A DNA stretch of 62,599 bases from Sandaracinaceae bacterium (GTDB taxonomy: Bacteria; Myxococcota_A; Polyangia; Polyangiales; Sandaracinaceae): assembly GCA_019637095.1 (NCBI GenBank), contig JAHBWG010000056.1:1-62599 (forward strand), in the 5' to 3' direction. The translations under genes were made by a program, and so were the position numbers. A model generated the notes under the pieces. It saw only the letters and a list, made by a program, of their open reading frames with translations. It did no database searches and was not told the DNA's origin. This document shows, piece by piece, positions 2,385 to 9,448 of this stretch (position 1 is its first letter; each line of letters begins with the position of its first letter).

Positions 2385-2506
2385 GAGAATGACGAAATGA
2401 CGAGGATCGTCCCCCCGACCCTCCGTGGCGAGGGGACGATCACCGTCGTTTCGTCGTCCGCGGGTCGGCGCGGCCAGAGAATGACGAGATGACGAGGATC
2501 GTCCCC
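2385..2506. repeat. REP/BIME-like cluster of three repeats
   Basis: Three copies of the sequence that forms the ends of the RAYT element at 7542-8528: 2385-2414 (identical over 30 bases), 2432-2458 (inverted, diverged) and 2477-2506 (one mismatch). Each has a G4 (or C4) end and a small foldback, GACGA-TCC-TCGTC. The direct-inverted-direct layout in a gap between genes is that of bacterial interspersed mosaic elements. These copies lack a transposase and are presumably mobilised in trans by the RAYT about 5 kb away (inference). Confidence 0.8.
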
Positions 2507-5196: not shown

Positions 5197-5508
5197 ATGG
5201 ACGCGAAGGACCGGGTCCTCTACGTACAGATCCTCGCGCAGATGCTCATCGCCGACGGGATCCTCGCCGACGAAGAGCGCGCGCACCTCGACCGCGTCGC
5301 GGCCTCGCTCGGCATGCCCGAGGAGGAGAAGCAGGCCGCCCTGCGCGGCGTGAGCATCGACAGCCCGGTGGAGGAGCGCGTCCGGGCGCTCTCGGCCGGC
5401 GCGCGCTCGAGCCTCCTCGCCGAGGTGAAGAAGGCGCTCTCGATCGACGGCGAGATGAGCAACTCCGAGAAGTGGTTCCTCGCGCGCGTCGAGCAGCTCC
5501 TCGCCTAG
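5197..5508 (+). CDS. TerB-like small helical protein
   Basis: 103 residues, all-helical and acidic, starting at the ATG at 5197. The pattern (ILAQMLIADGILADEERAHL, then SIDGEMSNSEKWFLARVEQ) matches the TerB/DjlA-N fold, where an Asp-Gly pair followed by E-E repeats two times. The family includes tellurite-resistance TerB, but most members have no known function. It lies 35 bases after oleD and 8 bases before the next gene, so it may be part of one transcription unit. No membrane segment or signal peptide is seen. Confidence 0.7.
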   Translation: MDAKDRVLYVQILAQMLIADGILADEERAHLDRVAASLGMPEEEKQAALRGVSIDSPVEERVRALSAGARSSLLAEVKKALSIDGEMSNSEKWFLARVEQLLA

Positions 5509-5516
5509 CCAGTCCG

Positions 5517-7541
5517 TTGCGGCGGCTCACCTCGCTCCACGCGTTCGTCTTCCTCGGCGCGCTGCTCCTGTTCTCGCTCGAGCCGCTCGTCGGGCGGCTC
5601 TTGCTGCCGCACTTCGGCGGGGCCTTCCACGTCTGGACGACCGCCCTGATGTTCTTCCAGGGCGCGCTCTTCCTCGCGTACCTCTACGCGCACCTGTTCG
5701 CCGACCGCGCGGGGGCGCTGCACCTCGCGCTCGTCGCGGCCCCGATCGCGCTGTTGCCGCCTTCCGTCGGCGCCGCCGCCCCGGACGAGGCGGGCACGCT
5801 CGGCATCCTCGCGCGCCTCGCGCTCCACATCGCCCTGCCCTTCGTCGCGCTCGCCACCACCGCCGTGGTCGCCCAGCGCTGGCGGGCGCGCAGCGGGGAA
5901 GCGCCCTACGCGCTCTACGCGCTCTCGAACGCGGGGAGCCTCGGCGCGCTCGCGCTCTACGCCCTCGTGATCGAGCCGTTCTTCGGGTTGAACGTGCAGC
6001 GGTGGGCGTGGGGCGCTGGCTACCTCGTGTACGTCGCGCTCGCGGTGCTCGCGTGGCGCCGCACCGCGCGACACGCGCCGCTGGCCGTGGCGATCGACGC
6101 GGGCGGCGAGCCCGCGCCGCGCGCGGGCGCGATGGCGTACTGGGCGATGCTCGCGGCCGCGCCGTCCGCGTTCCTGATGGCGGTCACGAACCTGATCGCG
6201 CTCGAGGCGGGCAGCGTGCCGCTCGTGTGGATCGTGCCGCTGGCGATCTACCTCGGCAGCTTCGTCGTCGCGTTCATGGACCCGCCGCCGGGCGAGCCCT
6301 CGCGCGTGCCGCGGCTGATGCGCCGGCTCTGGCCGCACGTCGCCGCGGTCGGCGCGTTCTTCTACTCGGGCGGCGACGCGGGCGGCGGCTGGCTCGAGAC
6401 CGTGCTGCACCTCGCGGTGCTCGCCTTCGTGACCTTCGCGGCGCACGGCGAGCTCTACCGGCGGCGCCCCGCCGCGCGGTGGCTCACGCGCTACTACCTC
6501 GTCATCGCCGCGGGCGGCGGCCTCGGCGGCGCGTTCGTCGCGCTGCTCGCGCCGGTCGCGTTCCGGGGCCTCTGGGAGTACCCGATCGCGCTCGCCGCGC
6601 TCGCGCTCACGATGGTGATCGGGCGTCGCGCCGAGCTCGCCGCGTGGCTGCGCGCCGCGCCCAAGCTCGCGATCGGCGTCTCGCTCGCGCTCGCCGTGGT
6701 CATCGGCGTGAAGATCGCCGACGGCGCGGGCGAGCGGGAGGCGAGCGCGACCCTCGCGGTGCGCCGCTCGTTCTACGGCGTCTATCGGGTGACGCGCACG
6801 CCGCGCGGCGAGGGCGCCGTGCGCGACCTCGTCAGCGGCTCGACGCGCCACGGCCGGCAGCGCGAGCGGGACGGCACCCCGCTGAGCTACTACCACCCGC
6901 GCGGCCCGCTCGGCGACGTCTTCACCGCGCGCGCCCCGTCGCGCACCGCCGTCGTCGGCCTCGGCGTCGGCGCCGCGGCCGGCCACCTCACGCGCGCCGA
7001 GCAGCGCATGCGCTTCTTCGAGATCGACCCGGTGGTCATCGAGCTCGCGCAGGCGCACTTCAGCTACCTGCGCCGCGCCGGCGCGCGCGCCGAGCTCGTC
7101 GCCGGCGACGCCCGCGTCAGCCTCGAGCGCGAGCGCGTGCGCGGCGAGCCTCCGTACGACCTGATCCTCGTCGACGCGTTCGCGGGCGACGCCATCCCCT
7201 CGCACCTCCTGACCCTCGAGGCGCTGCGCCTCTACCTCGACCGGCTCGCCGCGGACGGCGTGCTCCTCTTGCACGTCTCCAACCGCTACTACGACCTGCG
7301 CCCCGTGCTGCGCGCCAACGCCGAGCGCCTCGGGCTCGCCGGCGTCCACGTCGCGCGCACCACCGAGCTCGCGCTCGACCAGGATCCCTCGCAGTACGTC
7401 GCGCTCGCCCGCGACGAAGCGCCCCTCGAGGCCCTGCGCCTCCGCGCCGGCTGGCGCCGCCTGCGCGACACCCCCGCCCTCGCCGGCGGCCACGCCTGGA
7501 CCGACGACCACGTCGCCCCCCTCCGCGCACTCTCGCTATGA
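5517..7541 (+). CDS. Membrane-anchored spermidine-synthase-like methyltransferase
   Basis: 674 residues from a TTG at 5517; an in-frame GTG at 5472 would overlap the preceding gene. The first about 400 residues are strongly hydrophobic with roughly ten helices (LHAFVFLGALLLFSLEPLVG). From about 430 onward there is a soluble Rossmann domain of the polyamine-synthase type: VVGLGVGAAAG near 480, then FFEIDPVVIELA and DLILVDAFAGDAIPSHLLT. This is the known fused MFS/spermidine-synthase-like architecture. Spermidine synthase activity is not established for such fusions. The stop codon TGA touches the left end of the RAYT element, so the gene ends exactly at the insertion point. Confidence 0.8.
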   Translation: MRRLTSLHAFVFLGALLLFSLEPLVGRLLLPHFGGAFHVWTTALMFFQGALFLAYLYAHLFADRAGALHLALVAAPIALLPPSVGAAAPDEAGTLGILARLALHIALPFVALATTAVVAQRWRARSGEAPYALYALSNAGSLGALALYALVIEPFFGLNVQRWAWGAGYLVYVALAVLAWRRTARHAPLAVAIDAGGEPAPRAGAMAYWAMLAAAPSAFLMAVTNLIALEAGSVPLVWIVPLAIYLGSFVVAFMDPPPGEPSRVPRLMRRLWPHVAAVGAFFYSGGDAGGGWLETVLHLAVLAFVTFAAHGELYRRRPAARWLTRYYLVIAAGGGLGGAFVALLAPVAFRGLWEYPIALAALALTMVIGRRAELAAWLRAAPKLAIGVSLALAVVIGVKIADGAGEREASATLAVRRSFYGVYRVTRTPRGEGAVRDLVSGSTRHGRQRERDGTPLSYYHPRGPLGDVFTARAPSRTAVVGLGVGAAAGHLTRAEQRMRFFEIDPVVIELAQAHFSYLRRAGARAELVAGDARVSLERERVRGEPPYDLILVDAFAGDAIPSHLLTLEALRLYLDRLAADGVLLLHVSNRYYDLRPVLRANAERLGLAGVHVARTTELALDQDPSQYVALARDEAPLEALRLRAGWRRLRDTPALAGGHAWTDDHVAPLRALSL

Positions 7542-7571
7542 GGGGACGATCCTCGTCATTTCGTCATTCTC
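7542..7571 (-). repeat. Left REP-like end of the RAYT element
   Basis: Begins GGGGACGATCCTCGTC, with the foldback GACGA-TCC-TCGTC preceded by a G-rich tetranucleotide, the usual layout of REP sequences. It also supplies the RAYT stop codon (7564-7566). Confidence 0.85.
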
Positions 7572-8457
7572 GTCTCGCCCGAATGTTCAGCCTCTTGCGC
7601 AGCTCCGCGAGAACGCGGTCGAGGTCGCCGGCAGGCCGCTCGACGAGGTTGTAGACACTCCCGGCGCACATCCCCAGCTCTCGCCCAACGCTGGCGTAGC
7701 TTCGTCCTAGATCGCGCGTCGCGACGGTGGCGATCAGCCGCCTCGTCAGCGTCGCGCTCCGCCGCTTCGATCCGAGCCGCTCGCCCGCGGGCATGCCGGC
7801 GAGCTCCCGCGCCACACCGCACAGCGTCGACCACTCGACGTCGCATCCCTCGTCGAGCACCATCGCTTCGCTGCGCGCTCCACGCGCCCACGGCCGGTCC
7901 GCGAGATCGGCCTCGATCACGAACTCGTCGAACTCCCGACGCCCCGCCGCGGTGTCGCGAAACCCGAGAAGGTCCAGCGCCCACTCGACGTCGAACCACG
8001 GCGGCGCCGGATCGAGCCGGAGGTACACGCGGTGGCTCGTCCAGGTCGAGTCCCGCGGCGCCGCGACGACGCCCGCCTCGCCCGGGTTGCGGTGATGGTA
8101 GGCCACCACCCGCAAGAGCTCGGACTGGGGCACGGGGAAGAGCTTCGGGCGCTCCGCGAAGACCGGCCCGAGCGTCTCGTGCGTTCGGCTCCCGTGATAC
8201 GCGGCAGCGAAGCGCGTGTGCGCCGAGCGCAAGAACCGATCCGGCGCATCCTCCCCCGCGAGCAGGCATTGGTGGACGTGCGACGACATGAGCGCCCACG
8301 ACAGCCAGCGCCAGTCCCAGCGGTCCGACGCGCGCCCGATCGATCGCAAGAAGAGCTGACGGTCGCGGTCGTCGACGAGGTGGAAGCGACGGTCGACGAA
8401 TCGAGAGATGAGGTGGGCGCCCCAGCCGGGGACCCACGATCTGGCGTGTCGAGGCAT
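7564..8457 (-). CDS. REP-associated tyrosine transposase (Y1/HUH) with C-terminal helix-turn-helix
   Basis: 297 residues. HUH metal-binding motif His60-Val-His62 in SSHVHQCLLAGED; catalytic Tyr120 in YHHRNPGEAG, matching the family Y-x-x-x-NP pattern. RAYTs nick single-stranded REP DNA and are related to IS200/IS605 transposases, but are usually domesticated single copies. Residues about 235-290 (RDLGRSYASVGRELGMCAGS) form a DnaA/HTH-like tail found in many RAYT variants. The ATG at 8455-8457 is the start; the stop lies inside the left REP. All key residues are intact, so the enzyme is probably active. Confidence 0.9.
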   Translation of the reverse strand: MPRHARSWVPGWGAHLISRFVDRRFHLVDDRDRQLFLRSIGRASDRWDWRWLSWALMSSHVHQCLLAGEDAPDRFLRSAHTRFAAAYHGSRTHETLGPVFAERPKLFPVPQSELLRVVAYHHRNPGEAGVVAAPRDSTWTSHRVYLRLDPAPPWFDVEWALDLLGFRDTAAGRREFDEFVIEADLADRPWARGARSEAMVLDEGCDVEWSTLCGVARELAGMPAGERLGSKRRSATLTRRLIATVATRDLGRSYASVGRELGMCAGSVYNLVERPAGDLDRVLAELRKRLNIRARRE

Positions 8458-8498
8458 GCGCGTTCATCGGATCCGGGCGCGCGCGGTTTCCTCGCGGA

Positions 8499-8528
8499 GA
8501 GAATGACGAAATGACGAGGATCGTCCCC
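8499..8528 (+). repeat. Right REP-like end of the RAYT element
   Basis: Exact reverse complement of 7542-7571; starts gagaatgacgaaatgac and ends gatcgtcccc. Its last base is shared with the stop codon of the downstream gene on the minus strand. Confidence 0.85.
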
Positions 8529-9448
8529 TAGACTCGGTACGGGAACGCGACCGTCAACGTGGGTTGCGTGAAGACGGGGAAGGCGGCGGTCTCGACGGCC
8601 TCGCGAACACACTCGGCGACGGGCGCCGGGACGCCGCCGACGGTGACGCTGCGCGGGCGGCCGGTGGCGCCGTCGATGACGAGGCGCGCGGTGGCGGTGC
8701 CCTCGCCGTCGCCGCAGCGCGCGATGCGCGCCTCGAGCGCGCGCAAGACGGACGAGACGTCGCGCTGGCTCGGGACGAGGGGGAGCGAGGGACCGGCCAC
8801 GACGGGCGCGCGTCGATCGGCGAGCGCGGCGTCGAGCAGGCGGTCGAGCTCGCCGCCGAGCCCCGGGTCGGCGACCTCGCGCGAGGCGCCGACGCGGGCC
8901 GACGCGCCGTCGGTCGAGCGCGCGGGCGGCGGTACGCGGGCCGCGCGCGGCGCCGGGCCGAGCGAAGCAGGCTCGCGGACGTCCGCGCGCGCGAGCTCGG
9001 CGGAGCCGCTCGCGGCGAGCGGCCCGCCAGCGACAGCGGCGAGGCCAGGGACGTCGGTGATCCCCGCGACGTCGGCGACGTCGGCGACGGAGACGCCCGG
9101 CGCGGCGGGGTGCCCGCTCGCGCTCGGCTCGCCGACCCCCTCCGCGGCAGGCGGGGCCAGAGGCGCGTCCGGCGCCGCGCGCCCGACGAGGGCGTACGCG
9201 ACGAGCGTCGTGACGACGAGCGAGATCGCCAGCGCGGCGAGCGCGATCGCGGCGCGCTCGATCCAGACCGCGCGCGAGGGCGCACGCCGCGGCGGCTCGA
9301 AGAGCACGACGGGCCAGCTCGGGAGGTAGAGCTCGTCGAAGGAGCTGCGCGCCGGCCGCTCGGCGCGCGCGCGCGCCGCGAGCGCGTGGAGGTCGAGCAT
9401 CCCGGAGCTGCGGTCTTCGATCGGTGCGGTGGGGTTCTCGTTCGTCAT
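8528..9448 (-). CDS. TonB/AgmX-like protein with one membrane helix
   Basis: 306 residues. A charged cytoplasmic N-terminus (about 1-65), one membrane helix (about 66-92, IALAALAISLVVTTLVAYAL), a Pro/Ala-rich periplasmic linker, and a C-terminal domain (about 215-306) with paired Cys (IARCGDGEG, VAECVREAVE) and the TARLVIDGATGRPRSV pattern. That C-terminal arrangement matches the AgmX/PglI- or TonB-type domain common in myxobacteria, which links inner and outer membranes. No ExbB/ExbD genes lie nearby. Its stop codon adjoins the RAYT element. Role unknown. Confidence 0.65.
   Translation of the reverse strand: MTNENPTAPIEDRSSGMLDLHALAARARAERPARSSFDELYLPSWPVVLFEPPRRAPSRAVWIERAAIALAALAISLVVTTLVAYALVGRAAPDAPLAPPAAEGVGEPSASGHPAAPGVSVADVADVAGITDVPGLAAVAGGPLAASGSAELARADVREPASLGPAPRAARVPPPARSTDGASARVGASREVADPGLGGELDRLLDAALADRRAPVVAGPSLPLVPSQRDVSSVLRALEARIARCGDGEGTATARLVIDGATGRPRSVTVGGVPAPVAECVREAVETAAFPVFTQPTLTVAFPYRV

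Follow-up and report, generated by a model that had tools for sequence, protein, structure and literature searches.

A TIRtron-type element with tandem boxes in its ends and an end-copy family partly placed on stop codons in a Sandaracinaceae bacterium

The window, i.e. the whole 62,599-nt stretch of contig JAHBWG010000056.1 analyzed here (Sandaracinaceae bacterium, assembly GCA_019637095.1), harbors at positions 7542 to 8528 an element which, according to the fold and domain plan of its protein and to its ends, fits a TIRtron with a TIRYT-type transposase (TnpAREP subclass 2.1). We consider it probable that this complete TIRtron, with its single transposase, seeded about 125 non-autonomous copies of its ends in the source genome, and that a DnaA-like tail of the enzyme reads tandem boxes within the ends while the HUH domain nicks at their head. 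The predicted folds, the catalytic residues, the copies, their flank bias and stop peak as well as the tandem-box architecture were computed directly.

The terminal repeats of the element are complementary at 31 of 31 positions (arms 7541-7571 and 8499-8529) and exceed every other inverted repeat of the region in length. This bears out the perfect 30-bp inverted ends described in an earlier note on this DNA. Each end can be written as GGGGACGATCC + TCGTCATT + TCGTCATT. In the left terminal inverted repeat (7542-7571, plus strand), which is delimited by its sequence, the inverted repeat, its conservation in 123 copies and the box architecture, the head GGGGACGATCC spans 7542-7552 and is followed by box 1 (7553-7560) and box 2 (7561-7568), both reading TCGTCATT. 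The right repeat (8499-8528, minus strand), delimited by sequence and inverted repeat, has the same sequence, with the head at 8528-8518, box 1 at 8517-8510 and box 2 at 8509-8502. The perfect 31-nt repeats begin with AGGGGACGA, matching GGGGWSAS except at one position. The repeat family proper measures 28 nt (GGGGACGATCCTCGTCATYTCGTCATTC), and the end length of 30-31 nt is reached by counting an adjacent A and two bases of the repeat tail, which are not family-wide. As the earlier note had proposed, the left repeat supplies the stop of the transposase, whose TGA (7566-7564) lies inside it.

Further copies of the end are located about 5 kb away. One of them, at 2385-2414 (minus strand), is identical at 30 of 30 positions, in line with the identical repeats 5 kb away of the earlier note, and a second one (2477-2506, minus strand) carries one mismatch, a C at position 19; the chance expectation is 0.00 for either copy. 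Between these two lies a diverged copy (2432-2458, plus strand), which stands head-to-head with the copy at 2385-2414. Head-to-head pairs with a similar spacer occur at three unlinked places, i.e. at 2411-2435 of the window and at the loci L004 and L016 (CCCC-cgacgctttggggcga-GGGG, CCCC-ctgacgctgatgggcga-GGGG and CCCC-cgaccctccgtggcga-GGGG), and look as if they were a second composite unit.

The transposase is encoded by an ORF of 297 aa on the minus strand (7564-8457). Its catalytic residues His60, His62 and Tyr120, which the earlier note had already recognized, are unchanged across 17 homologues. The protein matches the NCBIfam model of REP-associated tyrosine transposases (NF047646) with an E-value of 1.7e-6 and 28 bits, below the cut-off of 80. 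Searches of the transposase itself against Pfam (cut-off 0.001), PHROGs and PDB sequences gave no match; among the homologues, Pfam reports Bac_DnaA_C in two and HTH_23 in one. The AlphaFold2 model built from 17 homologues is confident (pLDDT 87.2) and has two domains; an earlier one based on just 6 sequences was of poor quality (pLDDT 50.7) and was discarded. Residues 1-191 (7885-8457, minus strand) form the catalytic HUH domain, with the best match to 4er8_A, a REP-associated transposase with bound REP hairpin (Z 16.3, 2.7 Å, 155 residues). Residues 207-295 (7573-7839, minus strand) form a DnaA domain-IV-like domain, which matches best 3pvp_A, the DNA-binding domain of DnaA on a DnaA box (Z 12.0, 1.8 Å, 89 residues), and also 1j1v_A (Z 11.4). 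Structure matches to Thg1 and viral Rep proteins were counted merely as common fold. The gene is present in a single copy in the genome.

A Y1 HUH domain with a His-x-His motif and a tyrosine, a DnaA-like tail and long GGGG-type inverted repeats, which characterize subclass 2.1, are thus all found in the element. The main text of Di Nocera, De Gregorio and Rocco (2013) describes TIRtrons as a Y1/HUH transposase, the TIRYT, between long GGGGWSAS-type TIRs, some with moderately abundant solitary, paired and grouped end copies (PMC3733652). The window element agrees with that description in its transposase, in having long GGGG-type TIRs instead of GTAG REPs and in its end-copy family, and departs from it at one position of the head (GGGGACGA); the tandem-box layout and an exact contact of TIRs with stop codons are not described in that main text. 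Quentin et al. (2018) equate TIRYTs with subclass 2.1, the second-largest TnpAREP subclass, whose long proteins have, like the window transposase, a C-terminal Bac_DnaA_C/HTH_23-like domain, and left the role of this domain open (PMC6006769). In the vicinity of subclass 2.1 genes they detected nothing REP-like, and they consider it possible that the ends are not read by the tail or that the tail has acquired a new target, since the GGGG motif is unlike a DnaA box (PMC6006769). In contrast, the ends of the window element are found in 126 copies and include candidate boxes. With E. coli TnpAREP/RAYT systems the element shares the catalytic fold (PDB 4er8), outward pairs resembling REPINs and extragenic copies near 3' ends (PMC8266576; PMC2817692), and it differs from them by the missing GTAG, a weak single hairpin, the additional DnaA-like domain and the tandem boxes. 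IS200/IS605 elements (IS608, ISDra2) share the catalytic fold as well (Z up to 9.9) but have subterminal hairpins at non-identical ends, whereas the ends of the window element are identical and inverted. The element is a relative of RAYTs and not a classical REP/RAYT. The earlier designation as a RAYT element holds for the intact single-copy Y1/HUH transposase, the perfect paired ends and the many near-identical copies; it does not hold for the ends, which fall outside the strict definition of a REP because they lack GTAG, form a weak 5-bp hairpin, stay unfolded in a relative of 57% identity and accompany a protein with a DnaA-like C-terminal domain.

The source genome is compact (9.25 Mb, 197 contigs) and contains 126 copies of the end at up to three mismatches if Y is allowed at position 19, and 123 with T, while a reversed-pattern control yielded 0. 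The earlier note had proposed to count the copies and would have taken a lack of further ones as evidence against its reading; 126 copies exist next to one transposase. The analyzed set comprises 123 distinct heads, fetched locus by locus, with some diverged remnants outside it. The 27-nt consensus is exact in 76 of the 123 copies and differs at one position in 36, and repeat position 19 is split evenly between T and C. The copies are arranged in 84 units, namely 49 single copies, 20 pairs with outward heads as in the full element, and small clusters, and only 6 of the 123 cores are located within called coding sequence. Many extragenic copies together with outward inverted pairs are REPIN-like, and the pairs form long hairpins and fold strongly as RNA (-45 to -60 kcal/mol). 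A search of nine further genomes from the family at up to two mismatches yielded no copy, and the matches with three mismatches there have the sequence of a related but distinct repeat family. Since the copies are nearly identical and absent at this threshold from the nine genomes, their spread is, as judged from sequence, lineage-specific and probably recent, in line with the recent activity suggested earlier. The locus L063 (2074-2520, minus strand) contains end copies closely packed in tandem and separated by nearly repeated spacers, which suggests local amplification of the repeat plus its flank.

Many copies lie close to the 3' ends of genes, for the calling of which a codon model was used, with the window as training set. 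In 21 of 123 cases the head exactly abuts a stop codon, compared to 0.6 expected under random harmless placement (P 6e-26), with the loci having been picked for carrying copies, so that absolute rates are not genome-wide. Twelve of these heads directly follow the stop, which is always TGA in front of GGGG, nine overlap it by one base, and none is located at +1. Two effects contribute to this contact. The copies concentrate in convergent gaps, which are short in this genome: 33 of 76 gene pairs with copies are convergent, compared to 16 of 180 without, and both convergent stops are contacted by four outward pairs, one of them being the window element. In addition, 101 of 123 copies have A or C directly in front of the head, and in 97 this base is preceded by G or T. 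Part of the stop contact would be explained if the element preferred to land after GA, TA or C. After weighting by flank dinucleotides, however, 5.5 contacts are expected among 53 gene-proximal heads and 20 are seen (P 1.4e-7); flank preference and selection are therefore not a full explanation, as a 3.6-fold excess is left over. A comparison of TGA stops with other TGA in the same 3' regions showed no significant preference (Fisher p 0.47), with only 55 such sites available. In the repeat families of the relatives A, B and C, the flanks are AAA/AGA, TTC/ATC and CCG/CCA and there is no peak at 0/-1, and a fourth related family has 2 of about 24 copies on stops. Stop placement as a general property of such elements is thereby ruled out; it characterizes the window repeat family rather than transposases of this class.

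The residual excess and the enrichment in convergent gaps could also reflect retention by benefit, i.e. broad insertion, after which copies at stops were kept for ending or stabilizing transcripts or for tuning translation. The strong RNA folding of paired copies and the published cases of REPs lying up to 15 nt from stops in E. coli (PMC12306157) are consistent with this. We regard it as a serious rival, albeit an unlikely one: a distance of a few bases should be tolerated if the benefit lay in the transcript, yet the peak is confined to 0/-1 and no copy lies at +1, about half of the units consist of one copy and are weakly structured, and the related families have no stop peak.

The ends of related elements point to a division of labor within the repeat. 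Relatives whose transposases are about 55-57% identical to that of the window have the head in common and differ in the box, i.e. GCGTCATT twice (L231), TCGTCATA/TCGTCATT (L032) and TACCCATC/TACCCAAA (L036), so that each of these transposases has its own end family with the same head and other boxes. Among order-level families, the self-similarity of the inner part peaks at offset 8 (0.55), followed by offset 9 (0.45), with 0.22-0.34 at the others; the offset-8 peak exceeds all 5000 shuffles and remains without the GTCAT-type boxes. In 27 families from a broader bacterial range, offset 8 is again highest (0.41 vs 0.31 in the between-family control), with offset 7 next. Of 36 pooled families, a list assembled by hand from program output with one sequence each and with related families not fully independent, 15 show exact runs of 5 or more at offsets 7-9, compared to 1.2 expected from shuffles, 1 at offsets 4-6 and 0 at offsets 10-12. 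In the other 21 of the 36 no tandem run reaches a length of 5, so that the boxes may be degenerate or may not occur in all families. The heads are mostly GGGAC or GGGTC in the wider families and (G)GGGACG in the window clade. Because the DnaA domain binds 9-bp repeats (PMC6006769), the tandem units are putative binding sites of the tail; the head would accordingly serve the nuclease and the inner boxes the tail. A comparison of recognition helices with boxes is suggestive in the few families concerned, and homologues without the tail that have ends, with which tandem repeats could be compared, amount to 1 of 36. The tandem-box layout and its link to the DnaA-like tail were not found in the main text of the open-access papers searched.

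It appears improbable that the protein instead reads a single-repeat hairpin, like E. coli TnpAREP in a classical REP/RAYT system, with the tail serving otherwise, e.g. in replication-fork targeting. The catalytic domain indeed matches best the E. coli enzyme on its REP hairpin, pairs of copies form long hairpins and a stem of 5 bp (GACGA/TCGTC) is possible within a single window repeat. However, this stem is weak (-3.7 kcal/mol, z -1.9) and far from a stable palindrome, the ends of relative B, whose transposase is about 55% identical, show no fold, a GTAG-type tetranucleotide is absent from the repeat foot (115 of 123 copies start with GGGGACG), and the tandem boxes recur in families of unrelated sequence.

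Some of the related end families are arranged differently. In the genomes G006 (contigs C80 and C141) and G005 (contig C223), a related end family is packed locally, with its paired copies arrayed at intervals of about 1-2 kb, compared to the scattered copies in the genome of the window. In two congeneric species, a transposase of this class occupies the same locus (L037, 1453-2538; L038, 1411-2648), but the inner sequence of the ends has diverged. Another transposase locus is common to two species (L033, 1248-1310; L036, 2418-2443), one of which has an extra tandem right end plus flank, i.e. a local duplication.

At the window, the element is placed between a gene for a fused MFS/spermidine synthase-like protein with a natural C-terminus (5472-7541, plus strand) and an unnamed gene (8528-9448, minus strand) without Pfam or NCBIfam match, whose C-terminus agrees with the one comparable relative. 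The TGA of the first gene (7539-7541) directly adjoins the GGGG of the left end, and the TAG of the second (8530-8528) reaches one base into the right end, the first G being common to both, just as the earlier note had each end touching the stop of a neighbor. As the neighboring proteins end where those of relatives do, in the second case by a single comparison, the element sits at natural stops and neither gene is truncated; the two genes were not found together as an adjacent pair in the family genomes searched. That the repeats themselves created the stops by truncating longer genes is very unlikely, because both neighbors have the ends of their relatives, the stop is host sequence in the 12 cases of TGA before GGGG, and a G common to target and element accounts equally well for the TAG completed by the repeat's first G in 8 of the 9 one-base overlaps, although a plain join at the four double-contact pairs would read TGA followed by TA and leave the second gene without that stop.

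Coming back to the TIRtron reading, we infer DNA binding, cleavage, transposition and selection as a filter, according to the following scheme. Each end consists of two parts, the head ((G)GGGACG in the clade, GGG(A/T)C in the wider range) and the two tandem 8-mers TCGTCATT. The DnaA domain-IV-like tail would bind the tandem boxes and thereby confer family specificity, and the HUH domain (His60, His62, Tyr120) would nick at the head and join the element to target DNA. Single or paired units may be copied or moved by a TnpAREP-type reaction, which would have seeded the end copies as singles, outward-facing pairs and clusters. In a compact genome, the survivors would be those copies that broke no gene, and landing after GA, TA or C together with such selection would leave copies on the stops of convergent or upstream genes. 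It is conceivable, though we hold this wider claim more tentatively, that TIRYTs in general read their ends via a DnaA-derived domain on two tandem family-specific 7-9-bp boxes after a GGG(A/T)C head, unlike the hairpin reading of REP/RAYT or IS200/IS605 systems, and that the enzyme of the window family additionally directs insertion to stop-codon sequences.

The element itself is of a known kind, and both REPs near stops and GTAG REPs that supply TAG stops have been published (PMC3733652; PMC12306157). The tandem boxes provide a concrete candidate DNA target for the DnaA-like tail, and the source genome is an example of a subclass 2.1-type transposase accompanied by a large population of repeats. 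Finally, the exact placement on stops in one repeat family offers a clean case for weighing landing preference against selection.
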